In this document: positions 40,610 through 61,071 of the stretch, in pieces
How positions within the stretch are numbered: the first letter of the stretch is position 1
Layout: each line of letters starts with the position of its first letter
Source: Streptomyces fildesensis
GTDB taxonomy: Bacteria; Actinomycetota; Actinomycetes; Streptomycetales; Streptomycetaceae
DNA length: 64,000 bases
Direction of reading: 5' to 3'
Assembly: GCF_016107395.1 (NCBI RefSeq)
Contig: NZ_JAAIKO010000020.1
Span: 1-64,000 of the forward strand
Position numbers and translations under genes: made by a program
Notes under the pieces: model-generated
Databases searched by the model: none
What the model was told of the DNA's origin: nothing
Seen by the model: only the letters and a program-made list of their open reading frames with translations

Positions 40610-40830
40610 CCGGGAGGGTCCTCGTCGTCGGAACGGCGCCCGCGAACACGCCCTGTGCCGCTCTCTGTCCCTCGAGCCCGACGTCACCGCCCTGCACTGC
40701 GCCCCCGGCATCGCCGAGCTGCACGCGGTCGACTCCCTCGACGGTGCAGCCGTAGCCGCACTGGCCGGACAGCTGGCGCCGGCCTCGTAGTCGTGGGCCC
40801 GGGGGGCGCCCCTCGTCGCTGCCGCCCACG
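40610..40830 (+). pseudogene. purD: purD 5' fragment (phosphoribosylamine-glycine ligase), decayed
   Basis: After a GGGAGG ribosome site the start codon is missing. Then VLVVG, a 1-base slip, and REHALCRSLSLEPDVTALHC correspond to the PurD N-terminus, followed by a short deletion (APG then IAELHAVDSLDGAAVAALAG), another slip and VVVGPG. The remaining 85 percent of the gene is gone, replaced by an ISL3 relic. dnaX and purD are neighbours in Streptomyces chromosomes such as S. coelicolor (from memory). Confidence 0.7.
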
Positions 40831-40834
40831 ACGA

Positions 40835-41440
40835 TGGCCTCCGCACCGTCGACCGATACTCCGACATCCGCCACCTGCTCCGGGAGAAATGCTTCTTCTC
40901 CGCGATCGCCCGCCACCTGCACCTGGACCGCACGACCGGCCGCCGCTTCCGCGATACCGACCTCGACACCCGCTCGCCTCGTCGCGCATGGGACGCGCCA
41001 AAAGGGGTGCTTGAGTGCTACACCACCTACGTTACCGAGCGGTTCAGCGATGGTGTGACAAGCCCGGCTGACCTCTATCTCGAGATCCGTGACCGTGTAG
41101 ACGAGGGCAGTGACCTGCCTGTGCGCCACTACGTCGCCGGACTGCGGGCCGGCACCGTCAAACCCGCCCGCGGCGCTGTCCCCCGCCCACGCAAGATCAC
41201 CAAATGGATCAAGCTGCCCCGCGGTGCCCTGACGCGCCGCGAGGAGGACGAACTCCTGACCGTGCGCCTGGCCTTCCTCGATATCGCACGAGCCTGTGAC
41301 CTCGCCCGCACGTTCCATGACTTGCTCCAACACCGACGTGGTGACCAGATGGTGGCGTGGGTGCGCGAGTTCGAGCAGGAGGCGCCCGCCCCAATCCTCG
41401 CCCTCGCACAGAGGGCCCGCAACCAAGACATATACCCAAC
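40835..41440 (+). pseudogene. ISL3-family transposase fragment
   Basis: SDIRHLLREKCFFSAIARHL and HLDRTTGRRF form the central helix-turn-helix. Then, in another frame, GVTSPADLYLEIRDRV, PRPRKITKWIKLPRGALTRR and TFHDLLQHRRGDQMVAWVRE occur, as in ISL3 transposases. The ends and the main catalytic part are absent. Confidence 0.65.
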
Positions 41441-41645
41441 GAAAGAGGAACCCAGCAGTACCGAGTCCAGTTCGGTTCCCTGATCGACGAGATCGTCCGT
41501 GAGGGCGCTCGACGGATGCTGGCGGCTGAGGTCGACCAGTACATCGCCGAGCTCGTTGATCAGCGTGACGAGGTCGACCGCCATCAGGTGGTGCGCAATG
41601 GCCGCCATCGGGAATGGGCGGTGGTCACTGCGGCCTCCGTGCCGC
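41440..41645 (+). pseudogene. IS256-family (mutator) transposase N-terminal fragment
   Basis: FGSLIDEIVREGARRMLAAE followed by VDQYIAELVDQRDEVDRHQV and VRNGRHREWAV matches the start of IS256-type transposases. It breaks off near 41645, next to the 3' end of the peptide cluster. Confidence 0.65.
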
Positions 41646-41784: not shown

Positions 41785-42936
41785 TCAGGCACGCTGACCC
41801 CTCACCGCTCCGACCAGGCCATCGAGGCCAGCACGGTCGAGACCAGTGAAGAACACTGCATACTCCGAAGCGCATGGATGAGGAGGGACCTGACCCCGAG
41901 CCAAATTGCCGCGCCGCGTGCCGATGATGCCAGGCAGTCGCTCGGCATCGGTTTGAGCCAACGGCGCACGGCCGTCTTCCGCAAGCCTTGCCATCACGAG
42001 TCCGGTCAGCGGCAGTGCTGCCCGGGTCGGGGTGGCGTCGCGCGGCTCCACCCCTACTTGGGCTGATATATGCGCTTTCCACAAGCCGGAGCCGAGCGTA
42101 ACGTCGAGAAGTTCGGCCAGGCCGCTGCCAGCAGGGCGCAACCCGACCTCTCCGAAGTGGAGCTCCCCGTTCTGTACCAGGAACTCCATGTGAAAGACGC
42201 TTGTAGTGACAGCCATTGCCGTCAGCGCGGCCTGAGCCATCTCTCTCAGCGACTCCCGTCGAGGATCGGCCGCCGGCAGGATCAGCGATGTGCGCACCCC
42301 CCGTCGCGCAGACAGCACCGGGCGGTCGTAGGCGGAACACTCCAACCACACGAGTTCCCCGTTGACCGTCAGGCCCTCGGCGTGAAGTTCCTGTTCGACA
42401 TGGATCGCTTCTTCCACGACGAAGAACTCAGTAGCTCCAGTAAGCCACTCCTGTGCTGCAGGCACACTCATTCGTTGCACACCACGCGAGGACGACGAAG
42501 TAAGCGGCTTGATAACGACGTCGTTGACGCCGATCTCGTCAGGTCCCATCGCCAAAAACGAACGTATTGACCATGCTCGCGGTGCTCGCACCGCCCCGGC
42601 TGTGGCCTGCCTCATCCGAAGCTTGTTGGTTCCTACCGCCGTTTCGTCCAGACCCGGCCCAGGCAGTCCGTAGCGCGAACGCAGATGAGCTGCAGTCATC
42701 AGGGTGCCGTCCGACGTCGCCACAACGCCCGCAGCGCCGTTGCGCGCCTGCCAACTGTCGGCGGTTTTTACCAGTTCGGGGTAAACTTGATCAGTTGGGT
42801 CTCCGCCCAGCAGGTCGCCGAGGTACTCACGCTTGGCAATGCCGAGGGCGTCAAGCGCTTCCTCGGCTACAGATTTTCGACTACCCACGACCAAGACCCG
42901 CTCAGGCATCGCCAGGCCATGACTTTCACTTGTCAT
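41785..42936 (-). CDS. ATP-grasp ligase 2 of the peptide cluster
   Basis: 383 residues, start overlapping the stop of the preceding ligase gene (ATGA). ATP-grasp features: DVVIKPLTSSSSRGVQRMSV (ATP-binding Lys and loop), FFVVEEAIHVEQELHAEGL, and FHMEFLVQNGELHFGEVGLR carrying the metal-binding acidic residues. ATP-grasp enzymes form acyl-phosphates and couple a carboxylate to an amine, so the pair may join amino acids to the NRPS product. Last gene of the cluster, ending near an IS256 relic. Confidence 0.75.
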   Translation of the reverse strand: MTSESHGLAMPERVLVVGSRKSVAEEALDALGIAKREYLGDLLGGDPTDQVYPELVKTADSWQARNGAAGVVATSDGTLMTAAHLRSRYGLPGPGLDETAVGTNKLRMRQATAGAVRAPRAWSIRSFLAMGPDEIGVNDVVIKPLTSSSSRGVQRMSVPAAQEWLTGATEFFVVEEAIHVEQELHAEGLTVNGELVWLECSAYDRPVLSARRGVRTSLILPAADPRRESLREMAQAALTAMAVTTSVFHMEFLVQNGELHFGEVGLRPAGSGLAELLDVTLGSGLWKAHISAQVGVEPRDATPTRAALPLTGLVMARLAEDGRAPLAQTDAERLPGIIGTRRGNLARGQVPPHPCASEYAVFFTGLDRAGLDGLVGAVRGQRA

Positions 42937-44087
42937 TCACGACCTCCAGCGCAGGCGGCAACGGCACGCAGGGATGCCATTACTGAATCGTGATCGACAC
43001 CGTGGACATAGGCGTGCCCCCAATGGCCGTACACCCCTGTCCGTCCTTTGTCCCCGGGCGGGTAGTAGCACTCGTCCAAATCGAACCGCTGTAGCAAATC
43101 GTTCTCGGTAACAGCGTCCTCCGGGTGACGCGTGAGGAGGGCGCACCCATAGACGGGCGACGCGACGCGGTCGCTCAGCGACGCGGCCGGTTCAAGCCCG
43201 AGCGCAATATCGATGGCCGCACCGTAGAGGTCGATACCGTAGGTTCGCGCCAGTATCTCCGGAATCAGGGGGCCTCCAGGCCGTGAGGCGACTTCGCCGA
43301 AGGTCACAGTGCCATCACAACTCACGTAGCCCTCGAGGTGAAAGACGCAGTCGGGTGCCTCGAGGGCGGACATCACACGCCGCGTCATCGCCCGCGCCTC
43401 GTCGTCGAGCAGCAACTGCTGCCCTGCGAGCGGCGCACTGCCGGGGGCGCTACCCTCGACCCAGCTCATATTCAACGTGGTGTAGCGAGAGACGGTCATC
43501 CACGTTGCGGCGCCGCGCCGCCAGATGCCATCGACATGGAACTCCTCGCCCTGGACATACGACTCGCCGACCAGGTCGACGTCACCGCTCGTAGGATTGT
43601 GCCGCCTATAGGCCTCAAGGTCCGTGGACGAGCTGACCAATGCCGTCGCTCTTGCGCCGTAGCCGTCCGCCGGCTTAAGCACGAATCTCGACCCCAGATC
43701 ACTACACAGCGTTGCGTAGTTGTCACTACTCAACACGTAGCGGCACGTGGCACGCCGTACCTCCCCGAGCAGTGACTTCTGCACTTGCTTGTCACGGAAC
43801 CGTATGACCGTCTCGAAGTCGGACGCCGCGGGCAGGCCGAAGGCCAAACGCAGCACGTTGACTGAGAACACGGCGCGCTCGTTCCCGGTGACTGCCCCAT
43901 CAGGCTCGGGTACGGCCGCCCGAACGGTTCGTAGCACCTGCTGAGCATCGCCTAGGTCGCTGACCAGTGAGAACTGATGGTCGGCCAACCCCGGCCTTAC
44001 CCGATCGACCACGAAATGCAGCGGTATGCCTCGCTCACGGGCCGCCGCCGCAAAGCCAGCCCGGTAACCCAAACAGACCAAAGTCAT
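42933..44087 (-). CDS. ATP-grasp ligase 1 of the peptide cluster
   Basis: 384 residues from ATG 44087 (MTLVCLGYRAGFAAAARERG), with GAGGAG upstream. Contains FVLKPADGYGARATALV, VGESYVQGEEFHVDGIW and FHLEGYVSCDGTVTFGEVAS with RPGG, the ATP-grasp order seen in L-amino-acid ligases of the BacD/TabS type. A hydrophobic N-terminal Rossmann-like strand fits. Translationally coupled to the second ligase. It is separated from the NRPS genes by 2 kb of transposase debris, so the operon was probably continuous before the insertions. Confidence 0.8.
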   Translation of the reverse strand: MTLVCLGYRAGFAAAARERGIPLHFVVDRVRPGLADHQFSLVSDLGDAQQVLRTVRAAVPEPDGAVTGNERAVFSVNVLRLAFGLPAASDFETVIRFRDKQVQKSLLGEVRRATCRYVLSSDNYATLCSDLGSRFVLKPADGYGARATALVSSSTDLEAYRRHNPTSGDVDLVGESYVQGEEFHVDGIWRRGAATWMTVSRYTTLNMSWVEGSAPGSAPLAGQQLLLDDEARAMTRRVMSALEAPDCVFHLEGYVSCDGTVTFGEVASRPGGPLIPEILARTYGIDLYGAAIDIALGLEPAASLSDRVASPVYGCALLTRHPEDAVTENDLLQRFDLDECYYPPGDKGRTGVYGHWGHAYVHGVDHDSVMASLRAVAACAGGRE

Positions 44088-44744
44088 TGCTCTGACTCCT
44101 CATGCAGCCCCAAAAAACTGCCTGTGCTCGCCGGCACTATCCCGCGCGCGACGCCTCGACGGCCGACTCAGCAACCCCAACCGCCCAGGCGACATAGGGG
44201 ATCTTGTGACGCTCGAGCTCAACCTTGTCGGAAAAGACGTCGCAAGCCAACACTTCCAGCCCTCGGGGACTTACCGGATCTCGACTCCTTCAGACGAGTA
44301 AGTACTCCGCCGACTCCGGGCTGGTCCCCGGAAACTGGACACGAGGGTTGATCACGCGGCTTCGGCGAGGGTAGCAGCGTGGGTGGATTCGCAGGTTCTC
44401 GGGGTCTGACTGTCCGCACCATCAGCGGGTGCCTTGGTCACCCGCTGAAGCAGGTCGGAATCCACGGCAAGGAAACACTGGGTGAAGTTGGTCAGCGCGA
44501 AGCCGATCCCGAGGTGTGCAAGCCGAGCTCCATCTGGGTCTCGAGCAGTCCCAGCGACCAAGCATCGTCCACGGTCCGGGCGAAGATTCTCCCGTAACGG
44601 CTGATCACACATGAGATGACCTTGATGTGCAAGGGCGATCTCGGCGCCGGAGCCGTCCCGAACAGCCCCGTTCACCTGACTTAGCCCGCGTAAGCGGGGA
44701 ACTGCGGTACGCCGCGGGACCGTGGCCGGCGGGCATCGCGGTCG
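44088..44744. other. intergenic region upstream of the ATP-grasp genes
   Basis: No gene I can support. A minus-strand frame (44352-44774) has weak protein-like character (GIGFALTNFTQCFLAVDSDL) but no recognised family. It should contain the present promoter of the ligase genes. Confidence 0.4.
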
Positions 44745-45000
44745 GTCGTGGAGCCTGCCGTTGGAGGAGCGCATCCAGCTGGTCGCGGCCTACTAACGCA
44801 CGAACTTGACGATGCGCCAGCTCGCCCCGCCGTTCGGCATCTCGAAGTCGGCCGTCGACCGCCTCGGGCCGCTGCGCGCACTAACCGCGCAAGCGGTTCC
44901 GCTAGGACACCGTACTGATCATGGACGGCACCCTGGTCCCCACCCGCGACCGCTCGATCACCAAGCAGTCGGAGACATCTCATGTCCCCGGTTGGTCAAG
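44745..45000 (+). pseudogene. IS5-type transposase HTH fragment
   Basis: SLPLEERIQLVAAY, a TAA, NLTMRQLAPPFGISKSAVDR, a slip, then MDGTLVPTRDRSITKQSE, the first catalytic Asp region of the same IS5 group whose HTH lies at 35175-35330. Multiple frame breaks. Confidence 0.65.
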
Positions 45001-45007
45001 TAGGTAC

Positions 45008-45640
45008 TCAGGCTGCGAGAGCCACGGGTGCTACGAAGGCCCGGTTGGGGTCGAACAGCGTGCGGTGCTGTCGGCAGTAGTAGAGGCAGCCGGGCAAATT
45101 GTTGAACAGGTTTCTGAAAGCCGCAGTGTGGCGTTCTCCGCCGGCGCGTCGTCGGTCGCAGTGGGCGCGTGGGGCCTCAGTGCGAGGGGCGGCGAGGGCC
45201 CACATGTATCCGGCGGCGGCCAGACGCTGATTCTTGACCGTTCGGGCGACGACGACGTGGCTGCGGCCATGCCCGGGTAACGGGAGCCGCGCCAGCCAAG
45301 GCCTTTACCGCTCTGGCATCCGCGAAGCGTCCGCGGTCGTCGCCGATTTCTGCGAGGACCCGCGCTCCGGACAGTACGGACAGGCCCGGGAAGCCAGTGA
45401 TGACCTCGGCATCCGGGTGCGCGAGGAACGCTTACTCGGTTGCTACCGGGAGCTGAGCGACCGAGATGCAGGCGGCGTCGACCTGCTGAATGAGCGCCAC
45501 TACTTGGTGGCCCAGGGGCTGTTCGACCTGTGGCAACTGGCGAAGGTGTTCCGCGCGGGAGATCTCTCGAAGCCGCTCGACCTCGGCTTCAATGCCACAG
45601 CGTGGACGCTCGCCGCGTTTGAGTAGCGCGCGTAGTTGAC
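45008..45640 (-). pseudogene. IS110-family transposase C-terminal fragment
   Basis: CGIEAEVERLREISRAEHLR and QLPQVEQPLGHQVVALIQQV come first, then a disrupted helix-hairpin-helix part. The end is YMWALAA and HCDRRRAGGERHTAAFRNLF, stopping at 45008. Equivalent to residues about 220-413 of the IS110 transposase at 29362, but diverged and frameshifted. Confidence 0.65.
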
Positions 45641-45649
45641 ACAGCCTAG

Positions 45650-45885
45650 CCCCTTCCAACCTGCGCTCCAGGAAGCGCCGCCGCCTCTTGCCCACGCCCT
45701 GCGGCCAGATAGCAAGCTCCTCGGCGACCTATCGGTTCAACTTGCCGTCCGCGCACCCCAGCACGATCCGGCACCGCTGAGCCAACCCCTGCTAGAACTT
45801 CGCCCGTCGGGACCACCGCACCAGCGTCATTCACCCGTCCACGGACAACACCAACTCGGCCACCGGCCGCCCCATCTTCGCCATG
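45650..45885 (-). pseudogene. IS630-family transposase N-terminal fragment
   Basis: MGRPVAELVLSVDG, a stop, TLVRWSRRAKF, a stop, QGLAQRCRIVLGCADGKLNR and VGKRRRRFLERRLEG: the DNA-binding start of an IS630 transposase with several nonsense codons. Truncated after about 75 codons. Confidence 0.65.
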
Positions 45886-46168
45886 TTGGAGAGCCTACTA
45901 CGTCAACGAACTCGCAGCGCGAGACACTAGACGGCCGATTCACGCTCCCAGGGCAGTCGCACTGAATTACTCCGGATGCCCAGGGCGTACAGGTTCTTGC
46001 AGCTGCCTCGGCCAGTTGGCCCTGGCCGTCGACGTGCAGATCAGCACATCGACGGCCTCGGCGCGGGGAGCCTCCGATCCTGGGAATACCAGAGATCAGC
46101 GGCGATAATTGAGATTACACGTCATATGGTCACTGACTCATGGATCGTCGGCTCATTCAAAGGGTGCG
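45886..46168. other. spacer between IS debris and the NRPS 3' end
   Basis: No gene seen. Lower GC from about 46080 onward, as in the NRPS genes. No thioesterase fragment recognised. Confidence 0.4.
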
Positions 46169-49100
46169 TCATTCCGTGCAATCCAAAGCTCTGTGCAGGT
46201 GGTCGCGGAAATCCGAGGCGAACCGATTGGATACACGGTCCGTCTGATAAGTTACGTCGATAACCATTCCCCCATCAGCCTGGGGCCATACTTCCGTCAC
46301 CACCTCGCAGACGCCCGCAGGAACCTGCAGGCGGACCGGCACGGCGCGCGCCGATCCGAGAACGAGATGGGCTGCTGGAGCGTCCTGGTAGACGAATAGG
46401 AACTGATAGATCGGATCCCGCACGGTCCTCGGCGGATTCACCAAGCGTACGACCTCGCCGAAAGGAATGGCCTGATGCGCAAGCGCTGCTGTGGCCGCTT
46501 CGGCTACGTTGCGGATAGCCTCATCCCAGTTCTCATAGGCCACGGGGAACCGCACACAGACCGTATCAACCAAACAGCCGACGGCCGCCGCAAGTAGACT
46601 GGAGCTCCGCCTCGACACTGGCACCCCGACAGCGAAATCATCCTGCCCTGTGAGCGCCCGAAGCGTAGTCACACTTAGGGCCAATAGGACGGTGAACGGC
46701 GTGGTGGCGTGCCTCCGCGCGAGGTGGTGCACCTTGTCGGTCTCTGAGTTGCTTAGCCGGAAGCTGACAGTGTCGGCAGCGCTCTGAACTGGCTGGGACC
46801 CGCCAGGCGGCGTGGGTAGAGCCAACGCAGGGGTGTCGGTCAGCTCCCGTTGCCAGTAGATGCGGTGAGCATCCGAGTCAGTCAGCTCCTCGAGTTGCTG
46901 CATCTCGCGATGTACCCCGCGAAGAGTCGGAGCAGCAACGTCAAAGAAGGGTTCCCTTTCCTGCGCGCGGGCCGCGTACGCGGTGGCGAGTTCCGAAAGC
47001 AACACCGGTTCCGAGTGGCCGTCAAAGGCGATGTGGTGGAACGCGAACCCGAAGAACGACCCAGAAGTCCCCGCCAGGGGCACGAACCCCGCCCGCCAGA
47101 CTTCGCCCTGCTGCGGATCGAGCGGTCGTGTGAGCGTCTGTTGCAGCGACCGAAGGGCTTCTGCCTCGCTGTCGCACGGGGCGAGCAGACTGAAGCAGCG
47201 CTCTTCGTTCGTCTCGGAACAGGAGTACGAGGGGACAGCAACGAGTTGCAGCGCATCCGACTCGTTGTCTGGGCCGTAGACCGAGTGGAGTGACTCGTGG
47301 CGGGCTGCAAGATCGCCGAGTGCAGCCTCCAGTGCTACAGCGTTAATGTCGCCCTCAAGGCGCCACGCCAGTAGGCAAAGCCCGGAGAGGTCGCCGGGTT
47401 TTATGGCCTGTCGGGTCCAGAAAGCCATCTGGCTCTCGCTGAGCGGGACCGGCCCGCCCGGGCCGATCTCCAGCGGATGTTCAGCCGAGATATCATGGTC
47501 GTCGATCCACCGCGCCAGCTCACGCACGGACGCATGCCGGATCACCTCGGAGATTGGCAATGGCCTTCCGAGAGAGGTGGAGAGTCTGGTGCATACAGCT
47601 GCAAGGCCGAGTGATGTGCCTCCGAGGGCGAAGAATTTCTGCTCAAGCGGGACTGGGTCTAGGCCAAGCACGGAGGCGAAGACCCCAGCAACCGTGCGTT
47701 CGGTTTCACCGGCCGGCTCCTCGACATGAGGAGTTCGCCGGGCCGCAACAGGACGACTCTTGAGAAGCTTTACGATCTCATTCGAATCGGTCTTGCCATT
47801 CGCATTGAGGGGAAGGGCTGTCAGTCGGACTGCCGCGCGAGGAACCAGATAACCTGGGAGGCGGTGTTCCAGGAATGAGAGCAATTCTTCTTCCGAGGGG
47901 CCATGGGCGACTGCCGTGAAGGCGAGCCCTAGAGCGCCGTAGCCGCCAGATCCGTTGCCCAGCGCCACCACGCTGCACTGTGTGACCCCAGACAGCGAGC
48001 AGGCCACCCCTTCGATCTCGCCCGGCTCGATCCGGTGTCCGCGGATCTTCACCTGTCGGTCCGCTCGCCCGATGAAGTGCAACCGTCCTTCTTCGGTCCG
48101 CCGCACCAGATCACCTGTGCGGTATACCCGTGTGGCGACGCCCTCCAACTCCAGGGTGGGGAAGCTTTGCGCAGTCTTCTCGGGGTCACCGAGGTATCCG
48201 ACCGCCAGTCCCGCTCCGGAGATCAACAGTTCCCCTATCTCACCGAGACGACACAGCCGCTCCCCATTCCAGATGTGCAGGCCAGTTGCGGGGACGGCCT
48301 CGCCCAGGGGCAGGCCCTCGCTAAGCTCGCAATCTCCCGGGCGGACCTGATGGGTTGTCACAAAAAGCGTGGCCTCGACCGGTCCGTAGCCGTGCACCAC
48401 GCGGATCGCCGGAAAGCGCCGGAGTAGTGCGGCAACATGCCGCGACGAGACTTTCTCACCTGCAACAAAAATCTGGCGGACGCCCTCAAAAGCTTCGATA
48501 TCCTCGTCCACGAAGACATTGAAAAGGGTCGGAGTCAGAAAAACACAGTTGACCCCGTCCGCCGACACAAGCTCACGCAGAGTACCTGGCAGAAGGTGCG
48601 GCTCGTCAACCACGACCGAGCAGCCGCCGTTCAGTAGAACGCTCCACAATTCCAGGGTTAGGCCGTCCCAGGGCACAGCAGCTGTGAGCGGCATTACCGT
48701 ATCCTGACCAAGGTCAGCAAATTCGCAGTCCTTGAACAACCGTACAGTTCCGCTGTGTGGCGTAAGCGCACCCTTGGGTGCCCCGGTGCTGCCCGAGGTG
48801 AAGAACACCGACGCTGGCGCGTGAGGGGTGACCCGCACCGGGGTTGCTGCGTGAGTTACCCCAATGTATTCGGTAGGAGCAATGGCATCCGTTCCGGCCG
48901 GGGGGTCTGCCCTGTCCGTGATAGTCCACACCGCTCCCATGACCTTGACGAGCGCGTCGATCCGTACGCTCGGCCACGCGGGGTCAAGCGCCGCATAAGC
49001 GGCTCCGCGTTTGAGGATGGCAAGAAAAGCAATCACGAGCCCAATGGATCGGGGCAGGAGCACCGGAACGATATCGCCGGGACCCACACCAGCTCTCTCC

Positions 49101-49258
49101 AGACGCGTCGCCAGCTGGTTGGACGCCACCTCTAGATCGCCGTAAGTAAATACGGTGCTGCCATGTTTCAGTGCGGGCGCCTGGGGCGCCTCGACGACTC
49201 GCTGCGAAAAGATTTCGTGAATAAGACATGCGTCCTGAACACTGCCGCGCGGAGACAT
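46169..49258 (-). CDS. nonribosomal peptide synthetase, A-T-C
   Basis: 1029 residues from ATG 49258 with GAGGAGG upstream. Adenylation domain (about 1-510): FFTSGSTGAPKGAL, WDGLTLELW with the Asp that binds alpha-amino groups, GYGPVEATLF and YRTGDLVRR. Carrier domain (about 530-610): FFALGGTSLG with phosphopantetheine Ser. Condensation domain (about 620-1029): AFHHIAFDGHS, matching HHxxxDG, so it should be active. Domain order A-T-C with no thioesterase is unusual: the condensation domain is C-terminal and probably accepts the amino acid of the A-T protein or a downstream nucleophile. Release may rely on the ATP-grasp enzymes. Confidence 0.85.
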   Translation of the reverse strand: MSPRGSVQDACLIHEIFSQRVVEAPQAPALKHGSTVFTYGDLEVASNQLATRLERAGVGPGDIVPVLLPRSIGLVIAFLAILKRGAAYAALDPAWPSVRIDALVKVMGAVWTITDRADPPAGTDAIAPTEYIGVTHAATPVRVTPHAPASVFFTSGSTGAPKGALTPHSGTVRLFKDCEFADLGQDTVMPLTAAVPWDGLTLELWSVLLNGGCSVVVDEPHLLPGTLRELVSADGVNCVFLTPTLFNVFVDEDIEAFEGVRQIFVAGEKVSSRHVAALLRRFPAIRVVHGYGPVEATLFVTTHQVRPGDCELSEGLPLGEAVPATGLHIWNGERLCRLGEIGELLISGAGLAVGYLGDPEKTAQSFPTLELEGVATRVYRTGDLVRRTEEGRLHFIGRADRQVKIRGHRIEPGEIEGVACSLSGVTQCSVVALGNGSGGYGALGLAFTAVAHGPSEEELLSFLEHRLPGYLVPRAAVRLTALPLNANGKTDSNEIVKLLKSRPVAARRTPHVEEPAGETERTVAGVFASVLGLDPVPLEQKFFALGGTSLGLAAVCTRLSTSLGRPLPISEVIRHASVRELARWIDDHDISAEHPLEIGPGGPVPLSESQMAFWTRQAIKPGDLSGLCLLAWRLEGDINAVALEAALGDLAARHESLHSVYGPDNESDALQLVAVPSYSCSETNEERCFSLLAPCDSEAEALRSLQQTLTRPLDPQQGEVWRAGFVPLAGTSGSFFGFAFHHIAFDGHSEPVLLSELATAYAARAQEREPFFDVAAPTLRGVHREMQQLEELTDSDAHRIYWQRELTDTPALALPTPPGGSQPVQSAADTVSFRLSNSETDKVHHLARRHATTPFTVLLALSVTTLRALTGQDDFAVGVPVSRRSSSLLAAAVGCLVDTVCVRFPVAYENWDEAIRNVAEAATAALAHQAIPFGEVVRLVNPPRTVRDPIYQFLFVYQDAPAAHLVLGSARAVPVRLQVPAGVCEVVTEVWPQADGGMVIDVTYQTDRVSNRFASDFRDHLHRALDCTE

Positions 49259-49598
49259 TGCTGAAAATCCTCCTCGGCCGCCTCGATTTTCGGCGGGGCC
49301 TTTGGTGTAGGTGGGCTACTCTGATATCAAGCTGAGTATCTCTGCAATACGCTCATTAGCTGAAAGGCCGCCTAGAATCGATGTGTCAGCCGAACGAGTT
49401 CTCGACGGAATATGGCCCATTCACCGATCGCGTCTCCATCAATGCAGGCTCGCGCCCTGTCAGCTCGCAACCCGTGCCGCAGGGCATGGGCGCGCGGGCT
49501 GGACGAACGACCGCCTGGAGCTCCCCTGACACGCCTCCCTCAATCTGGATGTTAGGTGTCACTCCGCGATAGCGACGTGGCAAGCGGATCGAAGGTCC
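49259..49598. other. intergenic region between P450 and NRPS genes
   Basis: No gene seen. Probably contains a promoter or processing site for the A-T-C NRPS gene. Confidence 0.4.
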
Positions 49599-50825
49599 CT
49601 ATTGGACTTCCAATGGCATATGAGTGGTTCCCAATATAAAGTTGGAGCGCAACTTGCGTGGCGCCCCGCCTGAACGGAACCGTATTCCCCTCGAAAGCAG
49701 CGTCCCAAACAAGTACGACAACTCTATCTGGGCCACCGGCGCCCCGATGCACCGATGGATACCTGCACCATAGGAAAGATGACGATTGGGAGTCCTCGCT
49801 ACATCGAATATGTCGGCATCAGGAAATTGTGCATCGTCCCGGTTGGCCGAGACATTCCACAATGTGACCGAATCACCCTTGCTGATTTGCGCACTACCTC
49901 GTACCATGCTGGCCTGCGCGACTCTCTGAACATATGCGTTGGTCGAACTCCATCGGATCATCTCCTCGATCCCCGTCCCTATAAGCGCCGGCTCAACAAG
50001 CAGTCTGTCGTACTCGTCCGGATGCTCGATCAGCGCCTGAAGCCCGCTACAAGCCGTGTACGAGGAGGTCTCGTTACCGCCCACCGCAAGGTTCATGCAG
50101 TTGTAGAAAATCTCTTCCTCCGTCAGCGGTCGGCCGTTGATTTTCGCGCCGAGCAACACACTGATGAAATCCTCTTGGGGCGAACGGCGACGCTCTTCTA
50201 GGATGTCGACGAAGAATTCAAAGATCTCGGCCTGGAGCCAGACCAGGCGGAGCCGCTGGTCGCTTCCTAGATCGACGAAGGTCTCGTCCCTGAAGCCAAC
50301 CATGCGGCGGGTCAGGCCGATCAATTCGTGTGCCTGCTTGTGCCCGACGCCGAGAAGGACCATCAGGGCCCCAGCCGGCAGTTCAGTAGCGATCTCGCTG
50401 GCGAAATCACAGCCACCCTCAGCCAATGCGCGCTCGATCGCGCGATCCACCAATGCACGCACCTGGTCGCGGACTCGAGCGACTATGTGCGTGGAGAAGG
50501 CAGGGTGAATCTGCTGTTTGAGTAGCCGGTGCCTCGGAAGGTCGGAAGCCACGAGCATTTTTCCGCCCGCGGAATCGTCTTCGCTGCGGAATGAGCCGCC
50601 GAGGATCGCGCCGCGCGCCGAGCTGAACAGGCTGTGCTCGCGGTAGGCCCAGAGCACATCCTCGTAACGTGTTAGGGCCCAAAAATTGTTGCCGTCCCCA
50701 CCCTTATTCCAGTACACCGGCTCCTCGGCCCGCAACCGGGAGAAAGCCTCGTGATGACGGCCCTCGACAAAAAGGTCGATGTCAGTCAGGTCGATATGCG
50801 CGCTGGTGCTCGGGGTTGTCATCAC
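49599..50825 (-). CDS. cytochrome P450, probable beta-hydroxylase of a carrier-bound amino acid
   Basis: 408 residues. I-helix NLAVGGNETSS, ExxR in IEEMIRW, heme loop SYGAGIHRCIG with Cys359. The ATG overlaps the stop of the A-T NRPS gene (ATGA), so the two are made in tandem. Stand-alone A-T proteins paired with a P450 are known to load and beta-hydroxylate an amino acid before transfer (NovH/NovI, NikP1/NikQ). The same role is inferred here. The redox partner is not in the window. Confidence 0.85.
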   Translation of the reverse strand: MMTTPSTSAHIDLTDIDLFVEGRHHEAFSRLRAEEPVYWNKGGDGNNFWALTRYEDVLWAYREHSLFSSARGAILGGSFRSEDDSAGGKMLVASDLPRHRLLKQQIHPAFSTHIVARVRDQVRALVDRAIERALAEGGCDFASEIATELPAGALMVLLGVGHKQAHELIGLTRRMVGFRDETFVDLGSDQRLRLVWLQAEIFEFFVDILEERRRSPQEDFISVLLGAKINGRPLTEEEIFYNCMNLAVGGNETSSYTACSGLQALIEHPDEYDRLLVEPALIGTGIEEMIRWSSTNAYVQRVAQASMVRGSAQISKGDSVTLWNVSANRDDAQFPDADIFDVARTPNRHLSYGAGIHRCIGAPVAQIELSYLFGTLLSRGIRFRSGGAPRKLRSNFILGTTHMPLEVQ

Positions 50826-52606
50826 TTACCTTCACCACGGGCAGCATCAAGCACGGAGGCCAGGTCAGATAGGATTGAATTGCTAAGGAGAACTTCGTAC
50901 TCCAGCTCGACGCCCAGTTCTCGCTTAATTCTGGTATGGACTCGGAAGATTAGGAGCGAGTGTCCCCCCAAGGTGAAAAAGTCGTCGTTCCGGCCGACAT
51001 TTTCCACACCCAGCAATGCCTCCCAGAGCCCAGCGAGGTAGCGTTCGCTCTCGGTTGCCGGCGAAGTCTGTCCTACGTGGCGTTCCTGATAGCTGATCAG
51101 CAGCAGGCGTAGAGCGTCAACGTCCCGCTTGCCGTTCTGGGTCGCGGGGATCTTGTTCAAAGCGATAAAGTGGCTGGGCACCATAAAATCGGGCAAATCT
51201 GCCTCGGCGCCGTTGCGCAATTCCCTTAGCGACAAGCCCTCGTCCAGCACGACGAAGGCCACCAATTGCCGGTCGTTGCCCTCACCCGCGGCCAACACCA
51301 CAGCCTGATTGACCCGTTGATCGCGGAGTAGGCCGCGTTCCACCTCTCCCGGTTCGACCCGATAGCCGCGAACCTTGACCTGGGAGTCGCCGCGACCGAT
51401 GAAATCTAGGGTACCGTCACCGCGATCCCGCACCAGATCGCCGGTACGGTACAGACGGGAGGGCACAGCTGCACAGGGATTGGGCAAAAAGCGCTCGTCG
51501 GTTAGGTCAGGTGCGTCGAGGTAGCCGCGGGCCACACCGGGTCCGCCGACGAACAATTCTCCCGTCTCTCCCAGGGCTGCCGGCTGAAGGTCGGGCTTGA
51601 GAATGTACAAGGTAACGCCATTGAGGGGGCGGCCGATTGGGATAGCGTCGAGCGTGGCCTCGGCATCGGTCACTCGCTGGGCGGTACACGCCGTGGTGAT
51701 CTCGGCCGGGCCGTAGAGATTGTAGAGCTCGCCCTGGAATCGGCCGGCCAACAGGTCCCGGCAAGCTGACGGCAGGAGTACGTCGCCTCCGGCTTGGAGA
51801 ATGCGGAGTGAAGCGAAGGCGTCGCGGTCCTCGCGCACCACATGGTTGACGACCATCGTCGGGACTAGCATGGTGGTGATCCCACGTCGGCGCATCTCCC
51901 GCTGGAAGTCGGCGGCAAGAAGTTCGGGGACGTCAGGTAGCACAGCAACCTCGGCGCCGTGCAGAAGCGTTGTCCACATCTCGAAATGGAAGGCGTCGAA
52001 GGACAGGCTAGAGATTTGGCCTGTACGGTCCTCCGGACGAACCTGCGGAAGACTCGGGTTGCAGGCGAAAGACACAATATTGCCGTGCTCTAGGACGATG
52101 GCCTTGGGTGAGCCGGTCGACCCTGAGGTGAAAAGCACGCTGGCGGCGCTCGATGGCAGCGGGCCGCCAGCTGGGGCATGCACCACACCGTTCGACGGTT
52201 GGCTGCGGAACGGAAATATCTCCGCCCCCAAATGACTCAACGCGCCCTGCCAATCCGGCCGAGTGATGATCAACTTGGCTCCGCTGTGGGCGAACATGAA
52301 GTCTCGTCGCGCATCAGGGTAGCGCACCTCCACGGCAACATAGGCAGCGCCCGCTTTGAGGATGCCGAGAATTGCGACGAACACCTCGACGGAGCGGTCC
52401 AGGTACAGGCCCACTCGATCCTCAGAGTCGATACCCCGCTCCCGCAGCTGCCCGGCCAAAACGCTGGAGCGCCGGTCCAACTCCGTGTATGTGAGGGTCT
52501 GCCCTTCGTCGGAGACTGCGGGTCGGTCGGGAAACCGGGCCGCGGCGACGGCGAAGATGCCGGTGAGGGTGCGGGTCTCGAGAGTAGCGTTAAGGGCGGA
52601 ATGCAT
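50822..52606 (-). CDS. nonribosomal peptide synthetase, A-T didomain
   Basis: 594 residues from ATG 52606, chosen because GGAGG lies 5 bases before it; the frame is open to 52717. Adenylation domain: LFTSGSTGSPKAIVLEH, FDAFHFEMW with the substrate-binding Asp, LYNLYGPAEITTACT, YRTGDLVRD and NGKRD with catalytic Lys. Carrier domain: FFTLGGHSLL. No condensation or thioesterase domain, so the protein loads a free amino acid for modification by the coupled P450. No MbtH-like partner gene is in the window. The residue loaded cannot be predicted safely by eye. Confidence 0.85.
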   Translation of the reverse strand: MHSALNATLETRTLTGIFAVAAARFPDRPAVSDEGQTLTYTELDRRSSVLAGQLRERGIDSEDRVGLYLDRSVEVFVAILGILKAGAAYVAVEVRYPDARRDFMFAHSGAKLIITRPDWQGALSHLGAEIFPFRSQPSNGVVHAPAGGPLPSSAASVLFTSGSTGSPKAIVLEHGNIVSFACNPSLPQVRPEDRTGQISSLSFDAFHFEMWTTLLHGAEVAVLPDVPELLAADFQREMRRRGITTMLVPTMVVNHVVREDRDAFASLRILQAGGDVLLPSACRDLLAGRFQGELYNLYGPAEITTACTAQRVTDAEATLDAIPIGRPLNGVTLYILKPDLQPAALGETGELFVGGPGVARGYLDAPDLTDERFLPNPCAAVPSRLYRTGDLVRDRGDGTLDFIGRGDSQVKVRGYRVEPGEVERGLLRDQRVNQAVVLAAGEGNDRQLVAFVVLDEGLSLRELRNGAEADLPDFMVPSHFIALNKIPATQNGKRDVDALRLLLISYQERHVGQTSPATESERYLAGLWEALLGVENVGRNDDFFTLGGHSLLIFRVHTRIKRELGVELEYEVLLSNSILSDLASVLDAARGEGK

Positions 52607-53262
52607 GGCGGCCTCCATAAGGCTCTGTGTGCATTTTTGAGGAAAGTGGCAGCCACCATGGCGTCCGGATCCGCGGTGTTGCGCTGCAGAACGCCACGGG
52701 CGACTGCACTCAAACAACCGTTCAGGCGGGTAGCCGAATGTTGCCTTGGCGGGTCAAAGCGAGATTAATTTTCAGGCAGTTCTTGCACAATGCGCTTTGG
52801 CAGGGACGCGCATTTGGGTGAAGGATTTGCGTTTCTGGAATGGGTTGGCTCAAAGTCGTAGCCAACCGCTTGGTCTGATCCCGGTAAAGGCGGACAGCCG
52901 GAGTGGGGCGATGCGAGGACAGACGACGGGTGTTGGGCGAATACAGAAACTAGCGTTGGCGATCCCGGAACGATCCCTGCTCTCGGCCAGCCAGCCGAGG
53001 ATGGTAGTTTGCCTTCGCAGCGAAAACAAATTGACCCCCAGTGCCATGGTGGGCGCTTCGTTGACAGCTGATGCCCTCTTTCGCGTTGAATCTCGGGCAT
53101 CAGTGGCAGCGCGATTACGGTAAAGAGTTCGGTGCTGGCTCATCTACAGTCCCCCATTGCTGCGGTCAGCTGGACCGGAGGCTGCCCCAGGCCTCTGCGA
53201 TCGGGCCGGCGATCCGGACAAAGGCCGCATGGTCTCCGCACCAGCCTCCACCAGCAGAATCT
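52607..53262. other. intergenic region upstream of the NRPS operon
   Basis: No gene supported; the short open frames are weak. It should hold the main promoter of the A-T/P450 operon and the 3' end of the caspase-like gene. I found no clear -35/-10 pair. Confidence 0.4.
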
Positions 53263-55227
53263 TTACGGCTGAACGATACGGATCGGACGAGCGAGGGAAT
53301 GTATTTCCCCAGCCAAAGAAACTGACCCGATCAGGTAGTGGATACCGATTGGGGCTGAGTCGATCCGGATTGTAAGACTTGGTACTCCTCCCAAGAAGTC
53401 CACCGTCTCAGAGTGGCTTACTACCTCCCACGGGACCGCCTTGACAGCTAGCTTCGCCGCCCCACGAACGCCGGGTAGGGGTTTCCGTACTCCGTCTACA
53501 CCAAGCCAGGTCAGCTCGTAGTGCGCGGATTCACCCAGCCGGATATCAAGGGGTCCGTCGAGCGCGAGAGGTTCGCCCCTGTCGGAGCCATCGTAAATCA
53601 AATCGCACTGCCAGCAAGAAAATTCGCTTCTTGTGTGGCCAAGCGCCGGTATCTGCAATCTGGTCCGCGATACCGGATCTCCGCAGTAGGGGCATACTAT
53701 TCCGCTAGTTTCACCGTTTGTGCCCAAAACCTTCCGATCCGAATGCCGATCGGTCCGCATCGTATTACTGGTTCGCGCGTGGAGGGCACCGTAATTAGCG
53801 ACCTCGCGCTGCAATTGCACCCACTGGGCCTCCCTCCTCTCGCCAGCGGCCGCGATCATTTCCGCCGCCCCGCTCACCAGAACCTCGGCCCGGCCAGCGC
53901 TCTGAGTGGAAGCGATGTCCTCTAGGCGATCTTCAAGCGCGGCGCTGAGGCGTTCCCCATCTTCCTTTCCATGTACATCCAAGAAGAAGCTCGACTTCCG
54001 TACCGCATGAAGCGAATATGAAATACCTGGCGTAGCGAATACTTCTTCCTGTATGGTGCGGAACAATGGAATATCTTGAGGGTCGCAGGCTACTGGTTTG
54101 TCGCTGTCAGAAAGTCCTTCTGCAACGACTATCGCCCGACAAGTCCCAGGTACTGCTTCAACCCAGATTTGCCGCCTCTCCAGATTTTTTGTAACTCCAT
54201 TCAGTAGAAGTGCCCGTTCCGTAGGGGTGGATACCGATTGTTCGAACTCCGAAACGCTCCAGAGCTGATTGGTGACGTCGCCAATCTGCCTATCACCATC
54301 GGGAACGACTGCCAATGGATCGCCGATCAGGAGCCACGGTGACGTATTACCGACATGACTATGAACGCGATTGAGTAGTGAACAAGCTACGTGAGCAGGC
54401 TTCCCAGATCGGAGATCATTCAGTATCAGTAGATGTGCACTTACTATGCCCTCAGTCGCGCCCAAACTGGTAAATAGCACGTTTCCATAAGGACCCGTCA
54501 CGATTCCTGCCGAAACTGAGGCGCCTGCATCGCGCGGCCCGGAGCCGGTCGTAAGTGCTCTACAGCTGTCAAGGACAATGACATCTGAAGCAATATCCTG
54601 TGGTGCCACTCGATTCGGTAGCGCGATACCACCACCTTGAACGGGTTGGCTCCGCCCGCAGGGGCCGTTTTGGTGCGCGCAGGTCCAGGACGCACTGTCG
54701 AGCTCTCGAGGTGCCCGCCGGAGCATACTGCAAACCACGGCGCTCCCGACGCGCATATCAATGCCGATCCCCCCGTGGGCACAAAGTCCAGTAAATCGGC
54801 GCCGTTCCATCAATCGACGTTCAAGGTCTGATCGCGGTCCACTTGCTACAGTGATCCCGTCTCCGCTTACATCACGAACAGTGCCCAATGGTTGCACCGA
54901 CCAAATAAATGCATCCCTAGAATGCTGCCACTCGTATGTAGTCAGCTTTTCGGCATGACGCTCTGCTATTTCGATTCCAGCCCATCCAAATATGAAACCG
55001 ATCCCCGTCCGGCCTGTGCGGGCAGCAGAAGTTATTGACAGGATGTTGGCAGTGCTTACCGAACCGAGAGACAGGAATGCCGTGCCGAACAATCCAGCTG
55101 CAAGAAGGCTCACGACATGAGATACATCTCCCGCTCGGCATATCTCAGAGTCCCGACGCGATTGTAGAATACGCGCTGCAGGCAAACCCTCTGACGTGGC
55201 AATGATTACATTCGGGCGATTCGGCAT
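53263..55227 (-). CDS. caspase/CHAT-like cysteine peptidase with zinc ribbon
   Basis: 654 residues. The first 300 residues resemble a clan CD peptidase: the His motif FTGLCAHGGIGIDM near residue 150, the Cys motif DVIVLDSCRALTTG near 222, then NVLFTSLGATEGIVSAHLLI and PWLLIGDPLA, as in CHAT and gingipain-type proteases. A zinc ribbon near residue 525 has CPYC and CWQC pairs. The C-terminal 110 residues look beta-rich (YELTWLGVDGVRKP), perhaps an Ig-like binding domain. Both catalytic residues are present. It follows the HExxH gene by 147 bases on the same strand. GC is lower than in the neighbours. Peptidase assignment by motif only. Confidence 0.6.
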   Translation of the reverse strand: MPNRPNVIIATSEGLPAARILQSRRDSEICRAGDVSHVVSLLAAGLFGTAFLSLGSVSTANILSITSAARTGRTGIGFIFGWAGIEIAERHAEKLTTYEWQHSRDAFIWSVQPLGTVRDVSGDGITVASGPRSDLERRLMERRRFTGLCAHGGIGIDMRVGSAVVCSMLRRAPRELDSASWTCAHQNGPCGRSQPVQGGGIALPNRVAPQDIASDVIVLDSCRALTTGSGPRDAGASVSAGIVTGPYGNVLFTSLGATEGIVSAHLLILNDLRSGKPAHVACSLLNRVHSHVGNTSPWLLIGDPLAVVPDGDRQIGDVTNQLWSVSEFEQSVSTPTERALLLNGVTKNLERRQIWVEAVPGTCRAIVVAEGLSDSDKPVACDPQDIPLFRTIQEEVFATPGISYSLHAVRKSSFFLDVHGKEDGERLSAALEDRLEDIASTQSAGRAEVLVSGAAEMIAAAGERREAQWVQLQREVANYGALHARTSNTMRTDRHSDRKVLGTNGETSGIVCPYCGDPVSRTRLQIPALGHTRSEFSCWQCDLIYDGSDRGEPLALDGPLDIRLGESAHYELTWLGVDGVRKPLPGVRGAAKLAVKAVPWEVVSHSETVDFLGGVPSLTIRIDSAPIGIHYLIGSVSLAGEIHSLARPIRIVQP

Positions 55228-55374
55228 ATTTTCAGCATTCTCAATCGTGTCGCTTCAGGGCATGTCGCTTAGTGCTAGAGGTCGTTCCGTGAGGCCAACC
55301 CCCAGTTGCATCTCCGCGTCAGCACCACCGAAGACAGACAGGTCACGCGAGGGATTGACTTACTACAACAGATA

Positions 55375-56496
55375 TCAGACTTCCAGTTTCTCTTTGATTT
55401 CCGCAAAGAATGGAATGTGTCGATAATCCTTTGCCTCAGGGTCGAAATCCGTGTAGTCGTTGGTGAAGGACAGCAGCCTAGTTCGCACTTGATCCACAGA
55501 TTCATGATGAATTAGCTTTTCAATTCCAGTAATTTCGCCAAGGAATTGATATAGAACGATAGGCAAGGGAGGCAGCAGCTTGATTCGTCCATTTTTGAGG
55601 CTGATGCCCCCGTGCTCAGTAAGGTATTTGAAGAGTAGCTGTGATGCAACCGCATCGTAATTAGGGCGCGGGATCCCTTCTACGGCATAACGAAGGAGGC
55701 GCTCCGCCAAAATGTACTCAAAGGTCAAGGTAGCCTCACGTCGAGAGAGGTCCTCGTCATGCAGGCAAACCAACATTGCGGAGACGTCTACGCGCAGCTC
55801 TTCCAGGCCGGCCAGCGGCTTGCTGCTCTTCGCCGAGAGAAAATTGGGTATGGGCATATCTCCATGTCGATGATGGTATTCGTGGAGGTGCACCCACCAG
55901 GACGAAGCTTGCTCAACCTCAAGTTTTGTCGCGTTTCGCAAGTTAGGGAAACTGCCCTCGGCCATCACGGACGATATAAGCTTGCGCGTAATCCGCTGAT
56001 GACGCTCTACGAACTTGTCTATGAAATAGAAGATCAGATCTTCGTCGTCCTGGCTACCATCCAAATGATTTTCGGGAAATAGTGCTACCACAACCCTGGA
56101 TTGGAACCCCTGCGACATCTGCGTCATGTTGACAGGAAGCGTGTTACTTGCATATCGATCTACGAGATAATCGTTCGAAGGGAGCGCATCGTAAAATAGA
56201 TGATCAAGAGAAAGCGCAGGGAAATATGAGGCATTGAAAAGGGAAAAAATTTGATTATCTCTGCGCTCGTTGATGTGTAGCTTCGTCTCGACCAATCGAC
56301 CGACGGACGAGAAGTTCTGTGCATCGTTGATGAAAGCTTGAACGATCGGCTGGTGCCGAAGATAGCGAGTTCTCTTGAGATTTTGGACAAGCTCTGCCAG
56401 CGCCTCTGGGCTAACCCAAGTAGCTCTAGATCCCAATGATTCGCGCACATAATTCACTTCACGAATGCACTCTGAGAAATCATCACTTATCAACAT
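55375..56496 (-). CDS. HExxH-motif protein, DUF6421-like
   Basis: 373 residues from ATG 56496, with GGAGG 7 bases upstream. The central segment WWVHLHEYHHRHGDMPIPNF contains HExxH (HEYHH), followed 29 residues later by GLEELRVDVSAMLVCL, which could give the third metal ligand. This resembles DUF6421 proteins (HEYFHQ...GLLEEIKVD) from memory. Probably a metal-dependent hydrolase or protease-like enzyme, cytoplasmic. DNA visibly lower in GC (about half by eye) than Streptomyces genes, implying recent transfer. Likely first gene of a two-gene unit with the caspase-like protein. Confidence 0.6.
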   Translation of the reverse strand: MLISDDFSECIREVNYVRESLGSRATWVSPEALAELVQNLKRTRYLRHQPIVQAFINDAQNFSSVGRLVETKLHINERRDNQIFSLFNASYFPALSLDHLFYDALPSNDYLVDRYASNTLPVNMTQMSQGFQSRVVVALFPENHLDGSQDDEDLIFYFIDKFVERHQRITRKLISSVMAEGSFPNLRNATKLEVEQASSWWVHLHEYHHRHGDMPIPNFLSAKSSKPLAGLEELRVDVSAMLVCLHDEDLSRREATLTFEYILAERLLRYAVEGIPRPNYDAVASQLLFKYLTEHGGISLKNGRIKLLPPLPIVLYQFLGEITGIEKLIHHESVDQVRTRLLSFTNDYTDFDPEAKDYRHIPFFAEIKEKLEV

Positions 56497-59435: not shown

Positions 59436-60641
59436 TCAGCCCAAGGCGACCGGGTTGAGTGGCGGGGTGGTTTCGAAGGTACGGCCGTCGCGTATGAGGG
59501 CCCATAGGACGTTCAGACGGCGTCGCGCGAGGGCGATGACAGCCTGCTTATGGGTCTTGTTCTCGGCTTTCTTGCGGTCGTAGTAAGCCTTCGAGGTGGG
59601 GCAGCATCGGGACGCGACCTGCGCGGATATGTAGAAGACACGCAGCAGGCGCCGGCAGTAGCGGCGAGGCTGGCGCATATTGCCGCTGATACGTCCCGAG
59701 TCCTTCGGAACCGGAGCCAGGCCGGCGACGCCGGCGAGGCGGTCGGGGCTGCCGAAGACACTCATGTCGCCGCCGGTATGTGCGACGAACTCGGCGCCCA
59801 GAATTGCGCCGATGCCGGGCATGCTCACGATGGCGGCGGCGTGCGGGTGGTCGCGAAACCGGGCCTCGATCTGGGCGTCGGTCTCGGCGATCTCCTCATC
59901 AAGGGCCATCACCTCCCTCGCCAGCTTGGCCACTACAACCGCGGCCAGTCTCTCTCCGGCGACGGCGGTGTGCTGAGCTTCGGCGGCTTGGATGGCGGAG
60001 GCCGCGACGAGCTTGGAGTTGCGGACCGTGCGGTTCTTCAGCCAGGTCGCGAGACGGTTCTTGCCGATACGTCGTAGGGCGGCCGGGGTCTGGTAGCCGG
60101 TCAGCAGAACCAACGAGGCCTTCGAGGTGCTGTAGTCGAAGGCCCGTTCCAGGGCCGGGAATTATTCCAGCATCTGGGCCCGCATCCGGTTGATCGCTCT
60201 CGTGCGGTCCGCGGCCAGGTCCAGGCGGCGTGAGGTCAGGATCCGCAGGTCAACGGTAATGTCGTCCCCCCGGTGCAGTGTCTGGAGGTCCCGGCGCATG
60301 CGGGCCTGGTCCGCGATGACGAAGGCGTCCTTCGCGTCGGTCTTCCCGTCACCCCGGTAGGAGCCCGAAGCGTGATGGACGGTGCGGCCTGGGATATAGA
60401 GGACCTGCTGCCCGTTGTCGGTCAGCAGCGCGATCATCAACGCGGCCCCGCCGGCATTGAGGTCGATAGCCCAGGTCACCGGCTCGCTCTCGCTCAGCAC
60501 GAGAACATCGGCGATCAATTTGAGCAGGGCAGTGTCGTCGTTGGCCACCCGCCGCGACAGCCTGCGCTTGCCATCGGCGTCGAGCACTACACAGTGGTGT
60601 TCGGCTTTGCCCGCGTCTGTTCCAGCCCACAGTTCGGGCAC
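59436..60641 (-). pseudogene. IS110-family transposase with one nonsense codon
   Basis: From GTG 60641 (VPELWAGTDAGKAEHHCVV), with GGAGG upstream, the frame is perfect except for a TAA at 60164-60162. It reads RAQMLE-stop-FPALERAFDYSTSK, where the family has LEYFPALERAF. So Tyr TAC/TAT became TAA by one substitution. The DEDD region DGKTDAKDAFVIADQARM and C-terminal SMPGIGAILGAEFVAHTGGD are intact. 401 codons in all. Recently inactivated, judging by the lack of other damage. Confidence 0.8.
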
Positions 60642-61071
60642 GGCCACCTCCGGAGTCGTTCCTGTACTGGTCCCAGCAGACGACCTCGCCAGCGTGTCCT
60701 TACCAAGCGACCGTGTTGCGCGCATCCCAATCAGTGGCCGAGTCGTCGCGGGGCACCGGGCGGCCAATCAGTAGAAGCCACTCCAACGGCATGAACTTGA
60801 CAGCCACACCCAGTGCCCCTGGGCCTCCCGATCCTACGAGTGACCGGAGTCAACCCACCTACAACGTGCGGAACTTGAACGCGTGATGTCGGGAAGCGGT
60901 GAGCATTGCGTTGCCCACGCTGGCTCCTGGGTAGGCGCCACGGCAGGATGAGTGCATAACCGAAGACGACGCGGATCTGCTGGTCTTGCTACATGAGCTC
61001 GAGGGTCTGCCGCACGATCGGGTGACATCTGAAGTGGCTTGCCCTGCGGGGCAGGTGGGAAGGATGTCGCT

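Follow-up and report, generated by a model that had tools for sequence, protein, structure and literature searches.

Five biosynthetic genes lie on the minus strand between positions 41785 and 52606 of the window (the whole 64,000-nucleotide stretch analysed, part of contig C117), and their ORF positions together with Pfam and structure matches confirm the gene set drawn up in an earlier sequence-only reading: an A-T didomain protein, a cytochrome P450, an A-T-C NRPS protein and two ATP-grasp ligases. These core genes share an island with insertion-sequence (IS) remnants and further genes, given here in order of position.

41785-42936, minus strand: ATP-grasp ligase 2, L-amino-acid-ligase type (4wd3, E 5.3e-17), overlapping ligase 1 by 4 nt
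42933-44087, minus strand: ATP-grasp ligase 1, L-amino-acid-ligase type (4wd3, E 5.9e-14; relatives in the same family at 35-39%)
44088-46168, no strand assigned: IS debris without an intact coding frame, between the A-T-C gene and the ligases
46169-49258, minus strand: A-T-C NRPS protein (Pfam AMP-binding 2.4e-57, PP-binding, then Condensation 7.3e-46)
49599-50825, minus strand: cytochrome P450 (Pfam p450 1.1e-22), overlapping the A-T stop
50822-52606, minus strand: A-T didomain (Pfam AMP-binding 1.3e-74, PP-binding 6.6e-9; code DAFLQGLTAK; carrier Ser in LGGHSL)
53263-55227, minus strand: protein encoded directly upstream of the A-T didomain, with a VLDSCR motif and a C-terminal CxxC..CxxC; no Pfam match; cluster membership uncertain
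55375-56496, minus strand: DUF6421 protein (Pfam DUF6421 4e-13), next gene upstream in the same island; cluster membership uncertain
59436-60767, minus strand: broken IS110 transposase (NCBIfam IS110), its N- and C-terminal halves lying in different ORFs
62714-63703, minus strand: broken IS630 transposase in two ORFs of locus L051 (NCBIfam IS630 1.1e-15 and 3.6e-25), preceding the distal half of the island

All five core proteins are full length and keep their catalytic motifs intact, and their matches, motifs and overlaps together go far beyond chance. The Pfam search for the A-T didomain was run on its longest ORF (50822-52717), which starts with TTG; 52606 is the better start because its ATG is preceded by GGAGG. 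The proposed coupling of this gene to the P450 is borne out by their overlap (50822-52606 and 49599-50825), and the P450 retains its I-helix GGNETS, ExxR and heme-Cys (YGAGIHRCIG) motifs. The A-T-C protein indeed lacks a thioesterase: its Pfam domain order ends in the condensation domain, with neither a terminal TE nor an R domain. It carries the code DGLFFAGLFK, the carrier motif LGGTSL and an intact condensation motif (HHIAFDG), its full-length relatives stand at 34-37% identity, and it runs collinear with residues 12-965 of linear gramicidin synthetase A (LgrA), the A-T-C part of that enzyme, an alignment that fits an ordinary condensation domain placed after its own carrier.

The two ligases match Pfam ATP-grasp models at E 2e-4 and 6e-4, below the curated cut-offs, and the sole solved-structure match of either is, at low similarity, the L-amino acid ligase 4wd3 (RizA). 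When the ligases were aligned with seven relatives, the ATP-grasp catalytic residues K138, E252, E265 and R269 (ligase 1 numbering) proved invariant, and both are assigned to the amino-acid-ligase type. Their coupling, as first described, holds through the 4-nt overlap. Coupling does not extend across the full set, as 340 nt separate the P450 from the A-T-C gene and about 2.08 kb of IS debris precedes the ligases. Contig C117 has no thioesterase (PF00975) match and no MbtH gene; other thioesterases and MbtH proteins are encoded elsewhere in the genome.

An island of lower GC content

The island has a lower GC content than the flank around dnaX, and the debris at 44088-46168 matches IS5/IS630-type transposases of Streptomyces plasmids at 74-84%. 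The P450 was not found in plasmid records. Besides the core, the island takes in 53263-56496 and, past the window end, C117:64003 to about 85000. This distal half opens with an NAD_binding_4 stand-alone reductase (C117:64003-65067), an AMP-ligase, a carrier protein and an MFS gene, continues with NTP_transf_5, class-III aminotransferase, carbamoyltransferase and APH-like genes, and further holds CYTH, nucleotide-kinase-like, pyruvate-kinase-like, OTCase/ATCase-like and FAD oxidase genes. The cluster, originally called small, is probably larger than 41785-52606 and part of this IS-riddled low-GC island. A gene set at C117:75.7-85.1 kb (L050, L052), encoding carbamoyltransferase, OTCase/ATCase-like, pyruvate-kinase-like, nucleotide-kinase-like, CYTH, APH-like and acyl-CoA-dehydrogenase-like proteins, is possibly a second biosynthetic cluster. 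The distal kinase-like and carbamoyltransferase genes prompted us to consider a peptidyl-nucleoside product, a candidate rejected when no nucleoside-forming enzyme was identified.

At the island border, after dnaX, the plus-strand stretch 40655-41483 looks by eye like a transposase fragment, its part 41007-41483 giving no NCBIfam match; no tRNA was found in 30000-64000. On the other side of the core, the protein at 53263-55227 may be the counterpart of a Micromonospora chokoriensis gene (L028:6071-8146; BLASTP E 0.008, motifs in common), which stands in the same place upstream of an A-T gene and encodes a protein of similar size with the same VLDSCR/CxxC motifs. By eye, the window protein is possibly caspase-like with a zinc ribbon. 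A search of 297 genomes of the class returned only the protein itself, with no homolog in the 296 others, and structure prediction for it and its one weak relative gave a mean pLDDT of 29.6, too low for use.

Recurrence of the A-T/P450 pair in actinobacteria

Scanning the species-genome collection with the P450 yielded two loci, in Saccharopolyspora shandongensis (69%) and M. chokoriensis (67%), and in both an A-T protein at 63% identity precedes the P450. Further loci came from searches of sampled whole genomes, in which the neighbourhoods of the stronger matches were read by a simple ORF picker that may choose wrong overlapping frames; with these included, the P450 relatives stand at 69, 67 and 66% identity, and the A-T/P450 pair is found in at least 15 actinobacterial loci. 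The adenylation codes, read by MAFFT alignment against the GrsA pocket region with Lys517 assumed, are nearly invariant at D[AT][FY]L[QHAC]GL[TV]AK in 16 A-T proteins, 15 of which adjoin such a P450 (in genome G594 the A-T gene lies about 7 kb from the P450). DAFLQGLTAK is the code in the window, Saccharopolyspora, Micromonospora and genome G115. It matches no adenylation code known to us, and the first eight letters of six A-T code variants had no match in the literature searched. Pairwise identities of the A-T and P450 proteins correlate at r = 0.89 (45 pairs, ten loci), a value that fits joint inheritance of the two genes, although the comparisons depend on one another and common descent by itself produces a degree of correlation.

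The A-T-C protein is associated with the pair unevenly. It stands beside the pair in M. chokoriensis (34% identity to that of the window over 1031 aa), G115, G918 and G882; in G921, what lies near the pair is a match to its A domain. The code check proposed in the sequence-only reading thus yields DAFLQGLTAK for the A-T protein and DGLFFAGLFK for the A-T-C protein; the latter belongs with DAMWLGGIFK, DGLWLGGIFK and similar codes among the A-T-C relatives, which by our own reading suggest an aliphatic residue. No A-T-C code of this kind was printed in the literature searched.

Other genes accompany the cassette at some loci. A thioesterase is encoded nearby in M. chokoriensis, G115 and G865. 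SnoaL-like small proteins adjoin the A-T-C gene in G115 and G882 (by Pfam) and lie near it in G918 (by sequence), at L068:16651-17037, L072:14094-14459 and L074:6150-6515; none was seen in the window's 340-nt P450/A-T-C gap or the 2-kb gap before the ligases. Diaminopropionate-type genes also occur near the cassette: OCD in Saccharopolyspora and G115 (L027:14197-16353 and L069:1607-3544, with 51% identity between both loci), joined in Saccharopolyspora by a PALP gene. dCTP-deaminase-like (DCD) genes lie near the cassette in M. chokoriensis and G921 (L028:17019-18118, L078:19575-20003, L082:7551-8093), G921 having an AurF-like oxygenase and an AAA_18 kinase as well. The protein at L028:18051-19178, flanked by the DCD genes on one side and an MFS transporter on the other, gives a weak class II alanyl-tRNA synthetase match (Pfam E 0.048).

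For the ligases, a profile built from nine ATP-grasp sequences found 61 matches in 14 P450-carrying genomes, 7 of them within 20 kb of the P450 and spread over 4 of the 14 genomes. Against 0.29 loci expected at random, this corresponds to a Poisson P of about 2e-4; without the window genome the figures are 3 of 13 where 0.25 are expected (P about 2e-3). G921 had supplied sequence to the profile, and once it too is removed there remain 2 of 12 where 0.21 are expected (P about 0.02). All of these values overstate the association, since the 20-kb radius was our own choice and biosynthetic regions are probably rich in such ligases. Both loci found by the P450 alone, S. shandongensis and M. chokoriensis, have an ATP-grasp gene nearby. 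In Saccharopolyspora and G781 it directly follows the P450, and the window ligases are distantly related to these. Within the genus, a ligase at high identity was found in the window genome only. Homologs of ligase 1 (35-39%) also adjoin AMP-ligase-type NRPS-like proteins in G143, G145, G041 and G256 (L031-L036), apparently a different recurring cluster; a carbamoyltransferase-like protein was seen by eye beside the homolog in G143 and G145.

The association of ligases and NRPS genes is thus one of co-occurrence in relatives, without an intact operon in the window, and it bears on an alternative that we consider unlikely, namely that two unrelated remnants, an A-T/P450/A-T-C building-block cassette and a ligase pair belonging to another peptide pathway, were joined by insertion sequences in a hotspot beside dnaX. 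About 2 kb of transposase debris does part the ligases from the NRPS genes, and genome G116 has ligase 1 and ligase 2 in the window order, with GNAT and methyltransferase genes and no NRPS homolog in the flanks examined. Several cassette loci also do without a ligase: none lies within 20 kb of the cassette in G115, G918, G882, G577, G132 or G1010, in several of which the cassette sits among larger NRPS genes. Against two remnants stand the shared strand and similar composition of both gene sets, the enrichment of ligases near cassettes in other genomes, and G921, which has the cassette and a ligase 1-ligase 2 pair in the window order about 11 kb from its P450.

Proposed pathway and its alternatives

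The P450 matches the solved structures 4l0e (E 1.1e-71) and 3mgx (E 1.2e-54), the beta-hydroxylases P450sky and OxyD. Of the solved structures with an NRPS role 4l0e is the closest, although one CYP125 construct scores higher; because CYP125-type sequences score as high or higher, the relation marks a branch of the superfamily and is no proof of function. The prediction that the P450 belongs with carrier-tethered amino-acid hydroxylases is nonetheless supported. As the P450 is nearest 4l0e and NikQ acts only on carrier-loaded histidine (PMC10099666), oxidation of a residue on the A-T carrier would be the natural reading, with the beta carbon as its most likely site. The original proposal that the A-T/P450 pair acts on an amino acid gains from the relation to 4l0e and from the recurrence of the pair with correlated identities; homology of the P450 cannot tell beta-hydroxylation from other oxidations. 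An alternative we hold to be quite unlikely is that the tethered residue is altered in another way, by alpha,beta-desaturation, N-hydroxylation or epoxidation: the A-T code, having no match among known codes or in the literature searched, indicates no substrate, and carrier-acting P450s that desaturate exist in the WS9326A pathway, whereas the nearest NRPS-acting structures are the beta-hydroxylases P450sky and OxyD.

We propose, with about an even chance of being right, that the five genes form the NRPS/ligase core of an uncharacterised cluster and act together on one product. The A-T protein would adenylate one amino acid and tether it on its own carrier, where the partner P450 would oxidise it, most likely by beta-hydroxylation. 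The A-T-C protein would load a second, probably aliphatic residue. Since its condensation domain follows its own carrier and the A-T protein is the obvious partner, the A-T-C residue would serve as donor and the residue on the other carrier as acceptor; the condensation domain would join the two into a dipeptidyl thioester whose C-terminal residue is the hydroxylated one. A trans-acting enzyme encoded away from these genes would free the chain, and the two ligases would then add residues via free carboxylates to give a short peptide. ATP-grasp ligases work by turning carboxylates into acyl phosphates (PMC11641026), a route that requires an already released chain, so the ligases would act after release and are unlikely to be the release enzymes that the sequence-only reading had allowed them to be. 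Nor is there a complete NRPS line with its own release domain at the locus; a stand-alone reductase (C117:64003-65067) lies nearby. That the cluster is decaying, its release or supply genes removed by IS elements and no product now made, would accord with the several IS families of the island (some copies broken) and with a contig devoid of thioesterase and MbtH genes, when the loci of M. chokoriensis, G115 and G865 each have a thioesterase close by, but seems improbable given five full-length core genes with intact catalytic motifs and the thioesterases and MbtH proteins elsewhere in the genome.

Short-peptide assembly by tethered oxidation, A-T-C bond formation and ligase additions thus remains our preferred reading, and a wider version of it can be offered tentatively, as one that is possible but rather less likely than not. 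The A-T/P450 pair with its D[AT][FY]L[QHAC]GL[TV]AK code, the A-T-C protein and the ligases may mark out a class of actinobacterial hybrid thiotemplate/ATP-grasp peptides, so far undescribed, that share one specific oxidised residue as their basis. Together with its distal half, which supplies reductase, AMP-ligase, carrier protein, carbamoyltransferases and the nucleotide-kinase-like and pyruvate-kinase-like proteins, the island may join such a peptide to a non-peptide, possibly carbamoylated part. If true, the adenylation code and its dedicated P450 would offer a genome-mining handle for orphan clusters across several actinobacterial families. The clusters so flagged would share one unusual oxidised building block, some passing it to ATP-grasp ligases and not to a modular NRPS, and would present both a natural meeting point of the thiotemplate and ligase routes to peptides and a new A-domain specificity.

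Comparison with known systems

Like the window, the nikkomycin pathway combines a stand-alone A-T protein (NikP1), a partner P450 (NikQ) and an ATP-grasp ligase (NikS). NikP1 reportedly loads the amino acid, and we know of no A-T-C protein in that pathway. The histidine adenylation code is DSELTAEVCK, against which the window's DAFLQGLTAK predicts an A-T protein other than the histidine-activating nikkomycin type. NikQ, which beta-hydroxylates the loaded residue, acts only on carrier-bound histidine (PMC10099666), and the ATP-grasp ligase NikS belongs to that pathway too (PMC11641026). The nikkomycin ligase makes the final amide, whereas the window has two ligases and an A-T-C protein, lacks a local thioesterase and MbtH, and has yielded no nucleoside-forming genes; a nikkomycin-type thioesterase beside the A-T/P450 pair is likewise absent, with no PF00975 match on C117.

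In the dapdiamide pathway (DdaD/DdaC/DdaF/DdaG), the residue to be oxidised is held on an NRPS carrier, and amide formation falls to an ATP-grasp ligase (PMC12568646). The oxidase there is Fe(II)/2-oxoglutarate dependent, whereas that of the window is a P450, and no Fe(II)/2-oxoglutarate oxygenase of the dapdiamide type was identified among the genes examined. The likeness extends to the Saccharopolyspora relative, with its diaminopropionate-type OCD and PALP genes; none was seen next to the window core.

Other systems share single features. In the polyoxypeptin/aurantimycin pathways (PlyC, PlyD/PlyQ, PlyR, PlyS), a NikQ-like P450 working with discrete A and carrier domains is proposed to form 3-hydroxyleucine (PMC3943440). 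The A and carrier proteins there are separate, dedicated TEs feed a large modular NRPS, and no ATP-grasp ligases are described (PMC3943440). AMB biosynthesis (AmbB/AmbE) makes a very short thiotemplated peptide with few modules and tailoring while tethered (PMC4357302). Unlike the window, it uses 2-oxoglutarate oxygenases and a terminal TE, and has neither a P450 nor an ATP-grasp ligase. Among the L-amino acid ligases, which include 4wd3 and TabS, 4wd3 is the sole solved-structure relative of both window ligases; its similarity to them is low, and substrates are not inferable from it.

By analogy, nikkomycin and dapdiamide are the nearest precedents in logic, and the window would work like them without being a member of either family, since it lacks the histidine code, a local thioesterase and a 2-oxoglutarate oxidase. 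The composition had been judged unusual and unmatched. The combination indeed found no match, and a literature query for ATP-grasp ligases together with an A-T/P450 pair returned no paper; the cluster is an orphan within reach of the comparisons made, though its logic does have precedent. The first interpretation was partly right. Each step is known from these pathways and the parts are ordinary; what is new in comparison is a recurring A-T/P450 cassette with its own code, unevenly associated with A-T-C proteins and ATP-grasp ligases.
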